A DNA stretch of 64,000 nt. It comes from Acidobacteriota bacterium. GTDB taxonomy: Bacteria; Actinomycetota; Acidimicrobiia; Acidimicrobiales; Palsa-688. Positions 7,966 to 18,040 of this stretch are shown one piece after another; the first letter of the stretch is position 1, and each line of letters begins with the position of its first letter. The notes below the pieces were generated by a model that saw only the letters and a list, made by a program, of their open reading frames with translations, was not told the DNA's origin and did not search any database. The stretch spans positions 62,001 through 126,000 of the forward strand of contig JAGWSF010000111.1 of NCBI GenBank assembly GCA_028876385.1. Reading direction: 5' to 3'. The position numbers and the translations under genes were made by a program.

Positions 7966-8706
7966 TCAGTCCGGTGGAGCTGAATCTTCGTCGACTGTCG
8001 ACCCGGGCCGTGGCTGGCGCTGATCGGCCAGGGCCCTGAAGGTTTCGGCTTTCATGCTTACAAACAGCCCGGCGGCTTCGGCGGTGAGCGTTTCGCCGCA
8101 GTACATGCGCCCGCTCACCAGCACCTTGCGACCGTTGACGGAGTCCACCGTGCCTTCCAGACGCAGGACGCGGTGCAGAGGGGTCGGCCGGCGGTACTTC
8201 ACCGTCAGGGTGCCGGTCATGCCGGCCTGCCCCGAAAGGGACTGGGTGAGCCCCAGTAGTTCGTCGAAGGCGGCCGCGATGATCCCCCCGTGGACGCAGC
8301 CGGGAGGCCCCTCGTAGGCGATGCCGAATCGGGCTCGGCCGGCGATGCTGCGGCCGTCCACCCAGACCCGCATAGGGGGAGCCAGCGGGTTGGCCAGACC
8401 CAGCAGCGGGGACCAGTCGAAAAAGGCCCGGTCCGGGCCCAGACCGGAGGCCTCAGCTGTGCCGACGTAGCCCCGCACGACCTGGCCGTAGGGCTCGAGC
8501 AGTTCCTCCACGGGGGCCAGTCGGGACACGACCTCCCGCAGCACCTCGGGTGGGGCGGATGTGGCCGTCAGGCGATCGATGATCCGCCGCAGGGCCTCCC
8601 CGGCCTGGCGGGCGGCAGCCACGTCGTCGGTGACCGGCCCTTCGACCGCGGCCAGGCGCTCGGCCATCCCGGCCGCTCTCGCCTCGTCGATCTCGAACGG
8701 CTCCAT
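7966..8706 (-). CDS. Hotdog-fold thioesterase (PaaI-like)
   Basis: 246 aa from ATG 8706 (MEPFEIDEARAAG). The N-terminal 110 residues are helical and of no recognised type. The C-terminal half is a hotdog domain: a CVHGGIIAAAFDELLG segment that corresponds to the HGG-helix of PaaI/YbgC acyl-CoA thioesterases, then TGTLTVKYRRPTPLHRVLRLEGTV and GRKVLVSGRMYCGETLTAEAAGLFVSM. A cytoplasmic acyl-CoA thioester hydrolase of unknown substrate is likely. Its start codon overlaps the exonuclease III stop by 1 nt (TGATG), so the two are coupled. Confidence 0.85.
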   Translation of the reverse strand: MEPFEIDEARAAGMAERLAAVEGPVTDDVAAARQAGEALRRIIDRLTATSAPPEVLREVVSRLAPVEELLEPYGQVVRGYVGTAEASGLGPDRAFFDWSPLLGLANPLAPPMRVWVDGRSIAGRARFGIAYEGPPGCVHGGIIAAAFDELLGLTQSLSGQAGMTGTLTVKYRRPTPLHRVLRLEGTVDSVNGRKVLVSGRMYCGETLTAEAAGLFVSMKAETFRALADQRQPRPGSTVDEDSAPPD

Positions 8707-9482
8707 CAGACCGCTTCGACGTCGACGAAGACCGGTGCGTGATCGGACGGCTGCTTGCCCTTGCGGGCGTTGCGGTCGACCAGAGCCCAGCGCATCCGGG
8801 CCACCAGCGGTTCGGTCATGAGCACCAGATCGATGCGCATCCCCCGGTGCTCGTGGAAGTCCCCGGCCCGGTAATCCCAGTAGGTGTACAGCCGGTCGTC
8901 GGGGTAGCGCCGGCGGAAGGCGTCCACCAGCCCCCATTCCTCGAGACGGGCCAGCGCCTCCCGCTCCGGTTGGCTCACGTGGGTGGAACCGCTGAACGCA
9001 GCGGGGTCCCAGACGTCGGCGTCGGAGGGGGCGATGTTGAAATCTCCGCAGACGGCCACCTCACCGTCGGGACGGCCCAGAGCGTCGACGTGGTCACGCA
9101 ACCGTTCGAGCCACGCCAGCTTGTAGGCGTAGTGGTCCGAGTCGAGGCTGCGGCCGTTGGGCACGTACACGCTGCTCACCGTCACCCCCCCGCAGGTGGC
9201 GGTGATGATGCGGGTGTCGGGGTCGGCTTCGAGGTGGGACGCGAACCCGGCCACCGGGTCGTCGATCCCCACTCGGGACAGGATGGCCACCCCATTCCAC
9301 TGACCCGAGCCGTGATGGACGCTCTCGTAGCCGAGGGCGGAGAAGGCCATGTGCGGGAACGCGGCGTCGCTCAACTTGGTCTCCTGCAGGCACAGCACGT
9401 CCGGGCGGGCGTAACTGATCCACTCCTCCACGCGCGGCATACGCACTTTCAGAGAGTTGACGTTCCAGGTGGCGATGCGCAT
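8706..9482 (-). CDS. xthA: Exodeoxyribonuclease III / AP endonuclease
   Basis: 258 aa, full length for the ExoIII/EEP nuclease family. Conserved elements are ATWNVNSL (Asn7), LQETK (Glu34), VYVPNG, GDFNIAPSDADVWDP, YTYWDYR, RIDLVL and the terminal SDHAPVFV with the catalytic His. It cleaves DNA 5' to abasic sites and degrades 3' ends during base excision repair. A TACGAT hexamer on the minus strand (plus-strand 9492-9497) ends 9 nt before the ATG, consistent with a leaderless transcript. The thioesterase gene follows with a 1-nt overlap. Confidence 0.96.
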   Translation of the reverse strand: MRIATWNVNSLKVRMPRVEEWISYARPDVLCLQETKLSDAAFPHMAFSALGYESVHHGSGQWNGVAILSRVGIDDPVAGFASHLEADPDTRIITATCGGVTVSSVYVPNGRSLDSDHYAYKLAWLERLRDHVDALGRPDGEVAVCGDFNIAPSDADVWDPAAFSGSTHVSQPEREALARLEEWGLVDAFRRRYPDDRLYTYWDYRAGDFHEHRGMRIDLVLMTEPLVARMRWALVDRNARKGKQPSDHAPVFVDVEAV

Positions 9483-9560
9483 GACCCGGTCATCGTAGGG
9501 GCCATCCCGGAGGTGGTGACCATCTGATCCGGGGGAGGGCCGCTAGGGGTCCGGCCGGGG

Positions 9561-11681
9561 TCAGCCCCTGCCGGTCGAGTAGGGGTTCCTGCGGCCCGCC
9601 GGCCGAACCGGCGCCTTGGTCGCGGCGGCCTTCTCGACCGGCGCCTCCCTCGGGGCCGGCTGCTCGACCGCGGCCTTACGCGGCGCGGCCTTTCTCGATG
9701 CTGCCTTGCCGGCGGGTGCCCCCACCGCTGAGGCGTCGCCGACCGCCGCCGCTGGCGTGGCCCTGTCGGTCGCTGATTTAGGGGATGCGGCCTTGGTCGG
9801 TGCCATCTTCTTGGCCGCCGCCTTCCTGGCCGCCGCCTTTTCGGCCGGCGCCTTTTCGGCCGGCGCTTTGTTGGCCGCGGCCTTGGGCGCTTCAGCCTTG
9901 GGCGCGGCGGTCTTCGACACCGCGGTCTTGGGCGCCGCGGTCTTCGACACCGCCGCCTTCTTGGGCGTGGCCTTCCCGGCGTCGGTCTTCCCGGCGGCGG
10001 TCTTCCGGGCGTCGGTCTTCCCGGCCGTGGTCTTACTGGTGCTGGCCTCGCCGGCCGCCCTCTCAGCAGGGGCCTTCCTCGGGGCCGTCTGCCGCGCCGG
10101 GGCCTTCTCGGCGGGGGCCTTCGCGGCCGCCGCCTTCCTCGGCGCCGCCTTCTTGGCCGCCCCCTTCACAGCCGGGGCCTTCTCAGTCGGGGCTGACGCA
10201 GCCGGCGCCTGCCTAGCCGGGGTCGGGCCGGCTACGGCCCTGGCGGACCCGACCGACCGACCCGCCGCGGCGCGACGCGGCGTCGGGCCCTCGGCCTCGG
10301 TCTCTTCGGATACGGCCGTCTGTGGGGCCGCAACCCGCCGAGCCGCCGACTTGCGGGTCGGGGTGGGCTCCGACGCGGATCCAGCAGGGGCCACTTCGGC
10401 CACTGCTTTGCCGGCCGCGGGCCGGCGGGAAGTGGCGGCCGGCGCCGCGCCGAGCTCCTCCCCTGCGGCCTTACGGCCCGAGGCCTTGCGAGCCGCCACC
10501 TTTCGGGCCGGCCCGGGCTGGCCGGTGAGCGTGGCCGGCCGGTCTTGCGCCCCGGCCTCCTCCGCCGCCGGGCCGTCCGCCGTCGGGCCGCCGGCGCCCG
10601 CCGAGGCCGGCTCAGCCTCCACCGGAGCGGTCTTGGCCGCCACCCGACGGCGCGGTGCCCTCTTCACCGGCTCCGCCTCGCCGGCCGCGGTTGAGGCCGC
10701 CCCGACACCAATCAGCTCCTCGTCGTCATCGGGCTCGGCGGCGATCTCGGCTTCCACCGTCTCGGCCGTCGGGCTGCCCGCCACCCGGGCGAACCCCGGC
10801 AGAGCCAACTCGACCCCGCGGCGGGGAGGATCGAAAGCCTGGACCACGAAGGTCCGGGCCTCCCCCTTGGTGACCACTTCCCTAGCCCGCCGCGGCGGCG
10901 GGGACGCCATGGCCGACAGCGGTATGTAGCAACGGGCCCCGTCGGCTTCGACGAAGGCTCCGTGGGAGGAGTACTCGAGCACCGAACCCACCACGTCGCT
11001 GCCCAAAGGATGGGCGGCGATGAAGGTGATGAAGGCCAGCGGCTCGTTCACCGGTTCGGCCGGGGGGACACTGGAGCGGCGACGGCGCGACTTGGACCCG
11101 CTGGCCGGCTCGACCACCTCCTCGGTGGCGCGGGCGATGGCCCGGTCTATGGCCTTGGGCCGGGATTTCGGTCGGCTCTCGGGAGGGTGCTTGGCCCCGA
11201 CGACGTCGGTCTCGACCCGCTTCTTGCGCTTGGCCTCCTTGGTCACCTCGCGACTCTTGGCCCCCCGCACCGGTGTGCGATCCATGAAGATCCAGCCCAC
11301 GCCCGGCACCGGCTTGCCACCGACCAGCCGTCCCTTCTCGAACAGCCACACGTGCTCCCCGTGGAACTCCTGGAAGGAGTCGTTGGACAGAACCGTGGCC
11401 CCGGTCTTCTCGGCGATGCGCAGCAGGAAGGCATCCCCGCGGCCGATGGCCCCCGCCGGTGGCGACACCACCTCCCCGGCGGCCTCAGCCGCCTCGAAGT
11501 CGGCCAGCTCCGACGGGTCGATGCGGTGACCGAACGAAGCGTCCACGACGACTGTCACCTGGTCGTCGGGGTTCTCGGCGATGAACTCTCTCACCGCCTG
11601 ATCCAACTGGGCCAGACTGGGCATGCTTCGGCCCTCGGTCGCCAGGTTGGACCCATCAACTATCACGTGGCGCACTGACAT
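9561..11681 (-). CDS. Zc3h12a-like NYN-domain RNase fused to an S1-like domain and a histone-H1-like tail
   Basis: 706 aa. Residues 1-140 form a NYN/PIN-type nuclease domain: IVDGSN (Asp9, Asn12), VVVDASFG (Asp47), GRGDAFLLRIA (Asp83) and LSND (Asp101) give the acidic metal-binding set of Zc3h12a-type RNases. A basic linker follows (RKKRVE, PKSRPK, SRRRRS). Residues 215-300 resemble an S1/OB RNA-binding domain (GSVLEYSSHGAFVE, CYIPLSAMA, VVQAFDPPRRGVELAL). From about 310 to the end the protein is Ala/Lys/Pro-rich low-complexity sequence made of repeated KAPAEK, KTAAPK and RKAA motifs, like bacterial H1-like or HupB tails. Likely a nucleic-acid-binding RNase; the exact substrate is unknown. 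It stands alone, 77 bp from xthA. Confidence 0.8.
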   Translation of the reverse strand: MSVRHVIVDGSNLATEGRSMPSLAQLDQAVREFIAENPDDQVTVVVDASFGHRIDPSELADFEAAEAAGEVVSPPAGAIGRGDAFLLRIAEKTGATVLSNDSFQEFHGEHVWLFEKGRLVGGKPVPGVGWIFMDRTPVRGAKSREVTKEAKRKKRVETDVVGAKHPPESRPKSRPKAIDRAIARATEEVVEPASGSKSRRRRSSVPPAEPVNEPLAFITFIAAHPLGSDVVGSVLEYSSHGAFVEADGARCYIPLSAMASPPPRRAREVVTKGEARTFVVQAFDPPRRGVELALPGFARVAGSPTAETVEAEIAAEPDDDEELIGVGAASTAAGEAEPVKRAPRRRVAAKTAPVEAEPASAGAGGPTADGPAAEEAGAQDRPATLTGQPGPARKVAARKASGRKAAGEELGAAPAATSRRPAAGKAVAEVAPAGSASEPTPTRKSAARRVAAPQTAVSEETEAEGPTPRRAAAGRSVGSARAVAGPTPARQAPAASAPTEKAPAVKGAAKKAAPRKAAAAKAPAEKAPARQTAPRKAPAERAAGEASTSKTTAGKTDARKTAAGKTDAGKATPKKAAVSKTAAPKTAVSKTAAPKAEAPKAAANKAPAEKAPAEKAAARKAAAKKMAPTKAASPKSATDRATPAAAVGDASAVGAPAGKAASRKAAPRKAAVEQPAPREAPVEKAAATKAPVRPAGRRNPYSTGRG

Positions 11682-11819
11682 GGGTTCCTAAGAGTCAAGC
11701 ACCTGCGACACCGGCTGCAGTGGGACCCTGGCCCCAGCCGCCCTGCTCGCCGCCTGCGCCAGGGGTCGCACGGCCATCCGGCCCCCGGCCCGACCCGCTC
11801 CGGTAGCTTGTGTCCGCTC

Positions 11820-12563
11820 ATGGCCAGCCATCCCGACGCCGACGACCGGTCCCCCACCGGACAGCGCCCCCCGACCCCCGAAGACCCCACCCCGGATAGG
11901 GCCGCCGCTTCGGCCGGCCCCGGCCGGCCGACACAGGGCGGGCCGCCCGTGCAGGCCGTCCTGTGGGACTACGGGGGGGTGCTCACGACCAGCCCCTTCG
12001 AGGCCTTCCTCGCCTATGAGAAGGCCAACGGTCTCGAACCCGGTTTCATCCGCCGGGTGAACGCCACCAACCCCGACACCAACGCCTGGGCCCGCTTCGA
12101 GCGCTCCCAGGTCAGCGTGGCCGAGTTCGCCGAATTGTTCGAGGCCGAGGCCCGCGCGGCGGGCGGCGAGGTGGACGCCGCGGCGATCCTGGCCGCCCTG
12201 CGCGGCGCCCTGCGGCCCGCCATGGTCCGAGCCGTCGAACGTTGCCGCCAGCACGTCAAGACAGCGTTGCTCACCAACAACTTCACCAGTGCGGCCAGAG
12301 AGGCCGACGCCCACGAGTCGGTGCTCGAACTGTTCGACGTGGTGGTCGAGTCGTCGAAGGTCGGCTACCGCAAGCCCGATCCCCATTTCTACCGACACGC
12401 CTGCCAGCTTCTCGGGATAGACCCCTCCGAGGCGGTGTTCCTCGACGATCTGGGCATCAATCTCAAACCGGCCCGGGCCATGGGCATGCGCACCATCAGA
12501 GTGTCCGACCCGGCCACCGCGTTGGCTGAACTACAGGAGATGGTGGACTTCTCCCTGGACTGA
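11820..12563 (+). CDS. HAD-superfamily hydrolase (HAD-IA type)
   Basis: About 247 aa from ATG 11820; a TTG 12 nt upstream is an alternative. HAD motifs are present: I, LWDYGGVLTT (nucleophile Asp, with the second Asp replaced by Gly as in the YihX / epoxide-hydrolase N-domain branch); II, LLTNNFTS; III, KVGYRKPDPHFY; IV, VFLDDLGINLKPARAMGM. The first 40 residues are Pro-rich and probably disordered. Likely a cytoplasmic phosphatase of unknown substrate. A TAGCTT hexamer at 11804-11809 ends 10 nt before the ATG with no ribosome binding site. Confidence 0.88.
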   Translation: MASHPDADDRSPTGQRPPTPEDPTPDRAAASAGPGRPTQGGPPVQAVLWDYGGVLTTSPFEAFLAYEKANGLEPGFIRRVNATNPDTNAWARFERSQVSVAEFAELFEAEARAAGGEVDAAAILAALRGALRPAMVRAVERCRQHVKTALLTNNFTSAAREADAHESVLELFDVVVESSKVGYRKPDPHFYRHACQLLGIDPSEAVFLDDLGINLKPARAMGMRTIRVSDPATALAELQEMVDFSLD

Positions 12564-12566
12564 GCT

Positions 12567-12611
12567 GCGATCGACCGTGCGGCGATCGACCGACCGGCGA
12601 TCAACCGAGCG
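12567..12611 (+). repeat. 15-bp tandem repeat, 3 copies, at the convergent ends of the HAD gene and kgd
   Basis: Units at 12567-12581, 12582-12596 and 12597-12611, all beginning GCGATC(G/A)ACCG. The third unit includes the kgd stop codon (12601-12603 on the minus strand) and last codons, and the first unit begins 4 bp after the HAD stop. Confidence 0.93.
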
Positions 12612-15600
12612 CCCGCTCGAGCAGATCGCTCTGCTCCAGTTCGTGCATGGCGTGGGAACCGGTGGCCGGGGATCCCGATGCCCGGCGCGTCTGCCTCGAC
12701 ACCCGGTAGTCGGAACCGAACATCACATCCAGGCGGTCCCGCACGAAGTTGGCGGCGCCCATGTTGGCCGGCTCCTCCTGCACCCAGACGATCTCCTGGG
12801 CCTGCTCGTAGTCGGCCACCGCCGCCACGATCTGCTCGGCCGGCCACGGATGCAGCTGCTCGATCCGCACCACCGCCACATCGTGGCGTGCCGCCTTGGC
12901 CCGGGCATTGGCCAGGTCGAGGGCCGCCTTGCCGGTGGCCAGCACCACCCGGCGCACCCCGCGGCGATCGGCCTCACCATCAGCGAACAACGGGTCGTCG
13001 AGCACCTCGCGGAAGTGCCCGGAGGTGAACTCCGCCACCGGGCTGTAGGCCTCCCGACCCCGCAGGTAGCGCTTGGGGGTGAACACGACGAGCGGTTTGC
13101 GGATCGACATCAGCACCTGGCGGCGCAGCAGGTGGAACAGCTGGGAGGCGGTGGTGACGTCGACCACCTGAATGTTGTCCTCGGCGCAGAGGTCCAAGAA
13201 GCGCTCCATGCGCGCCGAGGAGTGCTCCGCACCCTGACCCTCGTAGCCGTGAGGCAGTAGGAGGGTCAGCCCCGATGTCTGGCCCCATTTGATCTCGGCG
13301 GCGGCGAGGAACTGGTCGATGATGATCTGGGCCCCGTTGACGAAGTCCCCGAACTGCGCCTCCCATGCCACCAACCCGTCGCGGGCGATGAGGGAGTAGC
13401 CGTACTCGAAGCCCAGCGCTGCGTACTCCGACAGCAGCGAGTCGAAGATGGTGAACCGCCCCGGACCGAGCTGGCCGAGCGGCACGTACTCCTGGCCGGT
13501 CTGGTAGTCGACGACCGCGGCGTTGCGGTGCCCGAAAGTACCCCGACGGCTGTCCTGACCGGCCAGTCGCACGTCGTGGCCGTCGAGCAGGAGGGTCCCG
13601 TAGGCCAACGCCTCGCCCAACGCCCAGTCGGCTTCCCCCGAGGCCCACAGCTTGGCCCGGGTGTCGAAGACCTTGATCAGCTTGGGGTGGACGGTGAAGC
13701 CCTCGGGGAACTCCGACAGGGCGTCGACGACACGATCGAGCCGGGCCGCCGCCACCGACGTCTCGATGGGCGGCAGGACCGCGGCCGGCACGAGCGCCGG
13801 CGGCAGGGACGTGACCGCCGGCGGGGCCGCCGCTCTCGTCTCGTCGAGCGCGGCCTGGAGACGCTGGGAGAAGTTCTCGAGGGCCGCCTGGGCCTGGTCC
13901 AGGTCGATGTCGCCCCGCCGGACCAGGGACTCGGTGTAGAGCTTGCGGACCGAGCGGTGCTCCTTGATCAGCTGGTAGAGCAGCGGCTGGGTGAGGGAGG
14001 GGTCGTCCTGCTCATTATGGCCGAAGCGGCGGTAGCAGACCATGTCGATGACGACGTCTTTGTGGAACTGCTGGCGGAACGCGAAGGCCAGCCGACCGAC
14101 CCGCACGCACGCCTCGGGATCATCACCGTTGACGTGGAAAATGGGGGCCTGCACCATCTTGGCCACGTCGGTGGCGTACACCGACGAGCGGGCCGACTCG
14201 GGGTTGGTGGTGAAGCCGAGCTGATTGTTGATGACCAGGTGCACGGTGCCGCCGGTCTCGTAGCCGGGCAGCGCCGACATGTTGAGGGTCTCGGCGACCA
14301 CGCCCTGGCCGGCGAAGGCGGCGTCGCCGTGGATGAGCAGGGGCAGCACCGGGTGGGCGCCCCGGTCGGTGATCTGGTCCTGCAGGGCCCGGGCCATGCC
14401 CTCCACCACGGGGTCCACGGCCTCGAGATGGGAGGGGTTGGAGGCCAGCCTCACGTCGATGGTCAGGCCCGATCGACCGGTGAACTTGCCCTGGAAGCCC
14501 TTGTGGTACTTGACGTCCCCCGAACCCTGGACGGTTCCCGGGTCGACGTTCCCCTCGAACTCGCTGAACAGTTCGCCGTAACCCTTGCCGACGATGTTGA
14601 TCAAGACGTTGAGCCGGCCGCGGTGGGCCATGCCGATCACCACCTGGCTGAGCCCGTCGGTGGCGGCCTGGTCGATCACCGCGTCGACCAACGGTATGGC
14701 CGACTCACCGCCTTCGAGGCCGAAGCGCTTCTGGCCTATGTACTTGGTGTTGAGGAACTGCTCGAGGGCCTCGGCGGCGTTCAGGCGGTCGAGGATCCAG
14801 CGCTGCTCGTCGGGGTCGAGGTTGCTCGGCACCCCTTCCACGTGCTCCTGGATCCAGCGCTTCTGGTCCGGCTCCTGAATGTGCATGTACTCGACGCCGA
14901 TGGTCCGGCAGTAGGCGTCGCGCAGGATCCCCAGAATGTCGCCCAGCTTCATGCGGTCGGAGCCGGCCAGACCGTTGGTGAAGAACTCCCTCCCCAGGTC
15001 CCACACCGACAGCCCGTGGCTGGCCGGGTCGAGCTCGGCGTGCATGTGCGGGTCGCGCCAGTCGAGCGGGTCGAGATGGGCGATCAGGTGGCCCCTCACC
15101 CGGTAGAGGTTGATGAGCTTCTCAACCTCCATCTGCTTGCGCAGGTGCAGCTCGCCGCTCTCCCCGAGGTCGTTGGTATCGCGGTGCAGCTGGACCGGCT
15201 CGTAGGGGACCCCCATCGCCTTGAAGACGTGGTGATAGAAGGAGTCGTCACCGTTCAGCAGCTGGTGCACCTTCTGGAGGAACAGACCGGACTCGGCGCC
15301 CTGGATGATGCGGTGGTCGTAGGTGCTGGTGATGGTGACCACCTTGGATACGCCCAGTTCGGCTAGCACCCTCGGGTCGGCCGACTGCCACTCGGCCGGA
15401 TAGTCGATGGTCCCCACACCGACGATGGCGCCCTGGCCGGGCATGAGCCTCGGCACCGACTGCACTGTGCCGATGGTGCCCGGGTTGGTCAGGCTGACCG
15501 ACGCGCCGGCGAGGTCGTCGGCTCCCACCTTCCCGGTCCTGACCTTGCGGATGAGATCCTCGTAGGCGGACCAGAAAGCCCGGAAGTCCATGGCGTCGGC

Positions 15601-16281
15601 GCCCTTGATGACCGGCACCATCAACGTGCGCGAACCGTCGGGCCTCTGCAGGTCCACTGCGATCCCGAGGTTCAGGTGCTCGTGGCGCCTCACCGCCGGA
15701 GCGGCCTTCGGGTCGTCGGGGTCGGCCTCGACGAACGACGAGTTCAACGCCGGCACCGCCCCGAGCGCCGTGACGACGGCGAACCCGATCAGGTGAGTGA
15801 AGCTCACCTTGCCGGCCGAACCGGTACGCGACAGCTGGTTGTTGAGGATCCGGCGGTTGATCTCGAGCAGCCCCGCCGGCACGGCCCGGAAGCTGGTGGC
15901 GGTGGGCACCGCCAGGCTGGCGGTCATGTTGGCCACCACCCGCGCCGCGGCACCGCGCAGGGGGCTGGCCGGCTCCTGCTCTACCGGAGCTCGCACCGTG
16001 GGCCCCGGTGCCGGGTGCGGCGCAGCCGGGGGCGGGGCGGGTCGGTCGCGCCCGTCACCACCGGCGACCGTGCCCACCTCGTCGGACGTGGTCGGGGGGG
16101 CCTGGCGGGCCTCGGGGGAGGAGGGCCGGGCCAGGTTGACCCCACCGGGTCGGTAGTCAAGGAAGAACTCCCGCCAGCTCTCGCTCACCGACGAGGGGTC
16201 CTGGCGGTACTGCTCGTACATGTCGTCGACCAGCCAGGCGTTGGGACCGAAGCTGGCCTCCCCGGGGGAGGGTGTGCTCAT
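12601..16281 (-). CDS. kgd: Multifunctional 2-oxoglutarate decarboxylase/dehydrogenase E1 with E2 succinyltransferase domain
   Basis: 1226 aa from ATG 16281. The order is: residues 1-40 an OGDH N-terminal segment ([19 protein letters not shown]); a Pro/Ala-rich linker to about 110; residues 110-345 an acyltransferase (E2-type) catalytic domain with the active-site [11 protein letters not shown] (His near 323); then the thiamine-diphosphate E1 domain ([41 protein letters not shown]) and the C-terminal transketolase-like part ([16 protein letters not shown]). No lipoyl domain is present, as in actinobacterial KGD/OdhA, which rely on another complex for lipoyl groups. It converts 2-oxoglutarate in the TCA cycle. 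The frame extends to 16383 but homology begins at this ATG. Divergent from ettA. Confidence 0.96.
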
Positions 16282-16357
16282 AACAAACACCCAGCGTACG
16301 GCTCGCGGCGCCCAAACCAGGCGACCACCTGCGCCTGTCGTCCAGACTGGAGGGAAT

Positions 16358-18040
<1,683 letters not shown>

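Follow-up and report, generated by a model that had tools for sequence, protein, structure and literature searches.

We describe here a protein of 706 residues, encoded by a single-copy gene, in which an N-terminal NYN (Zc3h12a-type) nuclease domain, a basic linker, an S1 domain and a long low-complexity tail are read in one open frame. By our searches it represents a new family with an undescribed domain architecture, built of known parts: none of the curated family models searched describes the layout, and our search of the literature on NYN plus S1 in bacteria found no description of it, in agreement with an earlier note, made from the letters of this stretch, whose author knew of no characterised protein of this kind. 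The gene lies in what we call the window, that is, the whole 64,000-nucleotide stretch of DNA analyzed (Table 1). The order of parts, the coordinates and the frame proposed for it at the outset were exact, and the tail that had been put at nearly 400 residues has 408. On balance, we consider it probable that the protein is a lineage-specific, housekeeping, metal-dependent endoribonuclease that would bind RNA through its S1 domain and be held in place by a polycationic tether.

Table 1. The gene under study and the parts of its product, in window positions
Feature	Positions	Strand	Basis or remark
Whole ORF, 706 aa, NYN-linker-S1-basic tail protein (start ATG at 11681, stop at 9561)	9561..11681	(-)	Translation; single copy in genome
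NYN/Zc3h12a-type nuclease domain, residues 1-143 (Pfam match 3-110)	11253..11681	(-)	PF11977, profile and Foldseek matches
Asp9, equivalent to Regnase-1 D141	11655..11657	(-)	Invariant in 100 homologues; alignment to 3v32/8wzc
Asp83 (GRGD83), equivalent to Regnase-1 D226; Gly82 at the D225 position	11433..11435	(-)	Invariant; alignment
Asp101 (SND101SFQE105FH), equivalent to Regnase-1 D244; Glu105 at the D248 position	11379..11381	(-)	Invariant; alignment
Basic linker, residues 144-212, net +9	11046..11252	(-)	IF2_N repeats or a long K/A stretch here in relatives
S1 (OB-fold) domain, residues 213-298 (Pfam match 227-292)	10788..11045	(-)	PF00575, Foldseek, invariant residues
Low-complexity tail, residues 299-706, net +34	9564..10787	(-)	Composition, charge, dN/dS
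Lys-rich second tail half, residues 499-706, net +33, HC2-like repeats	9564..10187	(-)	Charge; HC2 match 540-693

The nuclease and S1 domains

The N-terminal domain matches the Pfam family RNase_Zc3h12a (PF11977) at residues 3-110 with 33.7 bits against a cut-off of 23 (E 3.7e-8), and a profile of the NYN part, searched against the PDB, retrieved KHNYN (2.6e-6) and ZC3H12A (6.2e-6), along with ZC3H12C and ZC3H12B. In the Pfam scan of the window protein, run up to E 10, the YacP profile (PF05991) was not matched. An AlphaFold model built on a 34-sequence alignment has a mean pLDDT of 88, with values mostly above 90 in the NYN and S1 domains and low confidence in the linker at residues 161-172 and 195-204. 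The nuclease fold that had been proposed for residues 1-140 is borne out by this model, in which pLDDT is mostly above 90 across that segment, and by Foldseek, which pairs the NYN domain with the PIN domains of Regnase-1/ZC3H12C (5h9v, 3v34, 7ndk) at a target TM of 0.61-0.67 and a probability of 1.00.

Across 100 aligned homologues, residues D9, G10, S11, N12, D47, D83, N100, D101 and E105 are invariant. Using Regnase residue numbers that we assigned from the profile alignment, D9, D83, D101 and E105 align with Regnase D141, D226, D244 and D248, while Gly82 falls at D225, so that three of the four Regnase Mg-site aspartates are present and invariant. In Regnase, Mg is bound by D141, D225, D226 and D244, all of which are required (PMC8306088), and Regnase-1 D226N/D244N is inactive (PMC4772114). 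Three conserved aspartates are found in MARF1 and in the CRISPR-associated NYN protein of Bacteroides fragilis, the latter being a Mn2+-dependent RNase whose activity is abolished by D13A (PMC11346440). As judged from the alignment, the putative D9/D83/D101 site matches the three-aspartate site of these two proteins, and the acidic residues would cluster in the NYN domain. The statement that the acidic residues of the nuclease were intact holds, therefore, for D9, D83 and D101 but not for the D225 position, which is glycine, nor for the D248 position, which is glutamate.

The S1 (PF00575) match, at residues 227-292, scores 21.1 bits (E 4e-4), just below the cut-off of 22, and an orthologue (L054) exceeds the cut-off with 30.7 bits. 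Foldseek pairs this part with ribosomal protein S1 of Mycobacterium tuberculosis (4nni; 8.8e-7, probability 1.00), to which the fold is closest, and we can thus read what had been called an S1-like domain as an S1 OB-fold. Its invariant residues among the 100 aligned sequences are S239-H240-G241, Y252, P254 and P263. The NCBIfam models gave weak ribosomal-S1 and H1-like matches only.

Charge, composition and evolution of the tail and linker

The tail (residues 299-706) is composed of 32% Ala, 11% Pro, 10% Lys and 8% Arg and contains seven bulky hydrophobic residues; its charge lies almost wholly in the last 208 residues (net +33 at 499-706 versus net +1 at 299-498). Lys-Ala motifs occur 17 times, versus 5.2 in shuffled sequences. 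HC2 (PF07382) matches residues 540-693 with 32.2 bits, below its cut-off of 40, the whole protein scores 21.5 against the cut-off of 135 of the Hc2 model NF038052, and the tail alone reaches 46 bits against HC2. Neither two shuffled tails nor the tails of two other orthologues gave an HC2 match, so we rejected homology to HC2 and attribute the likeness to local Lys-Ala repeats rather than to a conserved domain. Of the tail once described as histone H1-like, then, the Ala/Lys/Pro richness and the positive charge, which is kept among relatives, stood, but the likeness itself is one of low complexity and only the second half is strongly basic.

Among 106 closed proteins, the median net charge is +39 for linker plus tail, versus -7 for NYN and -2 for S1, and linker plus tail exceed +5 in 105 of them. 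A tail of at least 40 residues is present in 88 (median 184 residues, net +31.5). Most of the remaining 18 terminate with the S1 domain. Of the 18, 14 belong to family f22, L093 and L107 group with that family, and L110 and L171, with short tails, stand apart from it. Taken together, these 18 proteins have linkers with a median of 114.5 residues and a net charge of +21, compared with 72 residues and +9 in the others, and placing the tail label on the tree takes 4 changes versus a mean of 16.8 in shuffles. Since the tail-less proteins of f22 carry a basic stretch in the linker instead, the positive charge is kept whereas its place in the chain is not. In both genomes of genus g242, within f22, two IF2_N repeats lie between NYN and S1 (L160:594-2147(+) and L175:1-1443(-); Pfam E 1.6e-15 and 5.9e-16, respectively); L160 has a K/A tail in addition, and the frame of L175 runs into a K/A stretch that is ended by the contig end. 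Between the two closest species, dN/dS is 0.54 in the tail, which also carries many indels, versus 0.03-0.05 in the domains and 0.03-0.08 in domains plus linker: the domains are under strong purifying selection and the tail is drifting fast.

We found no further K/A-rich frames within the window besides the NYN-S1 gene. Elsewhere, Ala/Lys-rich tails of a like kind were seen by sequence reading on HU (L147, G008) and on a phasin-like protein of the same genome as the window (L150), and an Ala/Lys-rich N-terminal stretch was seen on a putative membrane protein (L151, G032). Because such stretches recur on these proteins, the tail is probably a trait common in these genomes and not a targeting signal particular to this protein.

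Distribution and genomic context

Homologues were drawn from relatives, from a scan of 84,980 species (the best 80 of 103) and from phylum and class samples. An architecture search in other genomes had been suggested, and NYN and S1 stand together in one open frame in all 133 distinct homologues, which takes the architecture far beyond chance and argues against a chance fusion. Within the class, a full NYN match was obtained in 62 of the 79 genomes that belong to the order and in 6 of the 118 that do not; of the matches listed from elsewhere in the phylum (about 269 genomes), none covers NYN. Moreover, a search with PF11977 in 119 genomes sampled from the phylum was positive in 6, and every match above the cut-off was the NYN-S1 protein. 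In these samples, the family is thus specific to the Acidimicrobiales and a few relatives in the Acidimicrobiia. The 17 genomes of the order without the protein are spread over several families, and this absence implies that it is dispensable or can be lost in some lineages.

Among the 64 loci whose sequence extends 2.5 kb or more upstream of the gene, 57 have kgd (2-oxoglutarate dehydrogenase) on that side. An xthA-like gene of the Exo_endo_phos family (PF03372) follows the NYN-S1 gene closely, on its strand, both in the window and in 40 of the 55 loci in which this nuclease gene was found, and a HAD hydrolase on the opposite strand is common at the loci of relatives. Window positions 8706-16383 hold kgd, the HAD hydrolase (opposite strand), the NYN-S1 gene and the xthA-like nuclease gene, a set conserved in many relatives. 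The protein forms an orthologous family that is inherited across the order with conserved synteny, and the fusion is an old, selected one with a fast-drifting tail. Of 38 genomes tested, 37 encode RNase E, whether or not they carry the NYN-S1 protein, so compensation for a missing RNase E was rejected. Likewise, we rejected an origin in defence, toxin, phage or plasmid systems, as the protein matched nothing in the phages, plasmids and viral contigs searched and no family among the PADLOC defence models at E up to 1.

Three side observations concern the family at large. In some members of the order there is a second NYN protein that is shorter, with an open frame of 153-267 aa and an E of about 1e-10 to 1e-13; these were seen at G049:C36:101805-102074 and G042:C1:187158-187406 and also in G406, G481 and G457. 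The contig of L093 is labelled Acidobacteria and bears a tail-less NYN-S1 gene that groups with the actinobacterial family f22; given this placement with the tail-less clade, the contig is probably mis-binned. Finally, a TGA inside the profile match was reported for four relatives; recoding was rejected, since the one of them that was read (L121) stops normally just after S1.

Candidate function and comparison with known systems

In the reading that we favor, the NYN domain would cut RNA at the D9/D83/D101 metal site, and S1 would bind single-stranded RNA and present it to that site. The disordered Lys/Arg-rich segment, mostly the tail and in one family the linker, may serve as an electrostatic tether by which the enzyme, acidic in its other parts, stays bound to RNA, to ribosomes or to the nucleoid; by analogy with the lysine repeats of actinobacterial TopA, this tether could raise the enzyme's local concentration and processivity. 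Against this reading speak the glycine at one of the four Regnase metal aspartates, the S1 match of the window protein, which by itself is under the Pfam cut-off, the 17 of 79 genomes of the order without the protein, and the K/A-rich stretches on unrelated proteins, which would allow the tail to be a generic feature of a GC-rich lineage.

A more specific form of this reading, which we hold as a tentative possibility, is that the enzyme is brought to the ribosome or to mRNA under translation by S1, by IF2_N in the members that have it and by the polycation, and that the NYN domain would there cut mRNA or pre-rRNA in a Rae1/YacP-like manner. The nearness of the S1 domain to ribosomal protein S1, the IF2_N repeats of two relatives and Rae1, which is cited in PMC11346440 as a ribosome-dependent NYN RNase, are all consistent with it; nevertheless, IF2_N occurs in one genus only and no ribosomal-gene neighbourhood was seen. 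While S1 and IF2_N lean to translation, the parallels with TopA and HU and the adjoining nuclease gene lean to the nucleoid. There, a nucleoid-bound nuclease would act on nascent transcripts, R-loops or DNA-repair intermediates, its H1-like tail binding DNA and its NYN domain cutting RNA or, as other PIN-like nucleases do, flap-like structures. The lysine repeats of TopA indeed act on DNA, as Streptomyces coelicolor TopA without its C-terminal repeats leaves DNA sooner and is less processive (PMC7398561), and both the HU with a similar tail in a relative and the xthA-like exonuclease/endonuclease-family gene downstream fit such a role, but the RNA-binding nature of the S1 fold and the specific match of the NYN domain to RNases (KHNYN, ZC3H12A) speak against it, and we hold this role to be rather unlikely.

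Somewhat less likely again is that the polycation mainly drives RNA condensates and so concentrates decay, for which the BR-bodies of RNase E are the precedent (PMC10412687). A long, disordered, charged segment on a probable endoribonuclease would suit this role, and the RNase E of these genomes likewise bears a long extension rich in Arg, Gly and Ser; even so, tail lengths vary widely and some members are short-tailed or tail-less. In one such RNase E (L174:426-2930(+)), the extension, of low complexity, lies ahead of the core. We give little credence to the tail being functionless low-complexity drift in a GC-rich genome: a tail dN/dS of about 0.5, the many indels and the similar stretches on unrelated proteins would fit such drift, but the retention of positive charge in linker plus tail in 105 of 106 proteins, its placement in the linker of proteins that have no tail, and the excess of Lys-Ala motifs over shuffles speak against it. 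That the protein is a defence effector or toxin nuclease is very improbable, for although NYN nucleases are known from CRISPR contexts (PMC11346440), this one is single copy, adjoins kgd in most relatives and has no PADLOC, phage, plasmid or viral-contig match.

Returning to the tethered endoribonuclease, it occurs in most of the sampled genomes of an actinobacterial order whose members are mostly uncultured, although no curated model searched describes its layout; it is thus a candidate for a core RNase of that lineage that annotation has overlooked. It would also give Regnase-type nucleases, which are known chiefly from the immunity of animals, a housekeeping role in bacteria. The location of the charge in the tail of some members and in the linker of others amounts to a natural experiment that offers a clean test of polycationic tails as simple tethers. 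A broader proposal, which we regard as doubtful at present, is that of a new order-level RNase family in which a Regnase-type nuclease would owe its processivity, and its place on nascent RNA or on mRNA under translation, to a polycation free to change position in the chain; such a family would provide the order, alongside RNase E, with a way of processing or degrading RNA that is absent from other actinobacteria.

The closest known systems share parts of this design. Regnase/ZC3H12A-D and KHNYN (PF11977) have the same nuclease family and fold, with the D141/D226/D244 positions kept, and likewise join the nuclease to RNA-binding elements; the window protein differs in the glycine at D225, in having no CCCH zinc finger, UBA or KH domain but S1 and a polycation instead, and in its bacterial chromosomal context. 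Rae1/YacP (PF05991) is also a bacterial NYN-class RNase but belongs to a different Pfam family, and its best-known role is ribosome-dependent mRNA decay; it is known as a stand-alone domain and is not known to have S1 or a basic tail. The CRISPR-associated NYN ribonuclease of B. fragilis shares the three-aspartate active site but is a CRISPR locus protein, whereas ours matches no defence model. RNase E/G likewise combines an endoribonuclease core, S1 and a long charged disordered region, yet its catalytic fold is unrelated and RNase E coexists with the NYN-S1 protein. Finally, the lysine-repeat tails of actinobacterial TopA and HU (HupS/HupB) are also rich in Ala, Lys and Pro, have been likened to histone H1 and, in TopA, hold the enzyme on DNA; they sit on DNA enzymes or architectural proteins, while the tail described here sits on a putative RNase, and the likeness is compositional.
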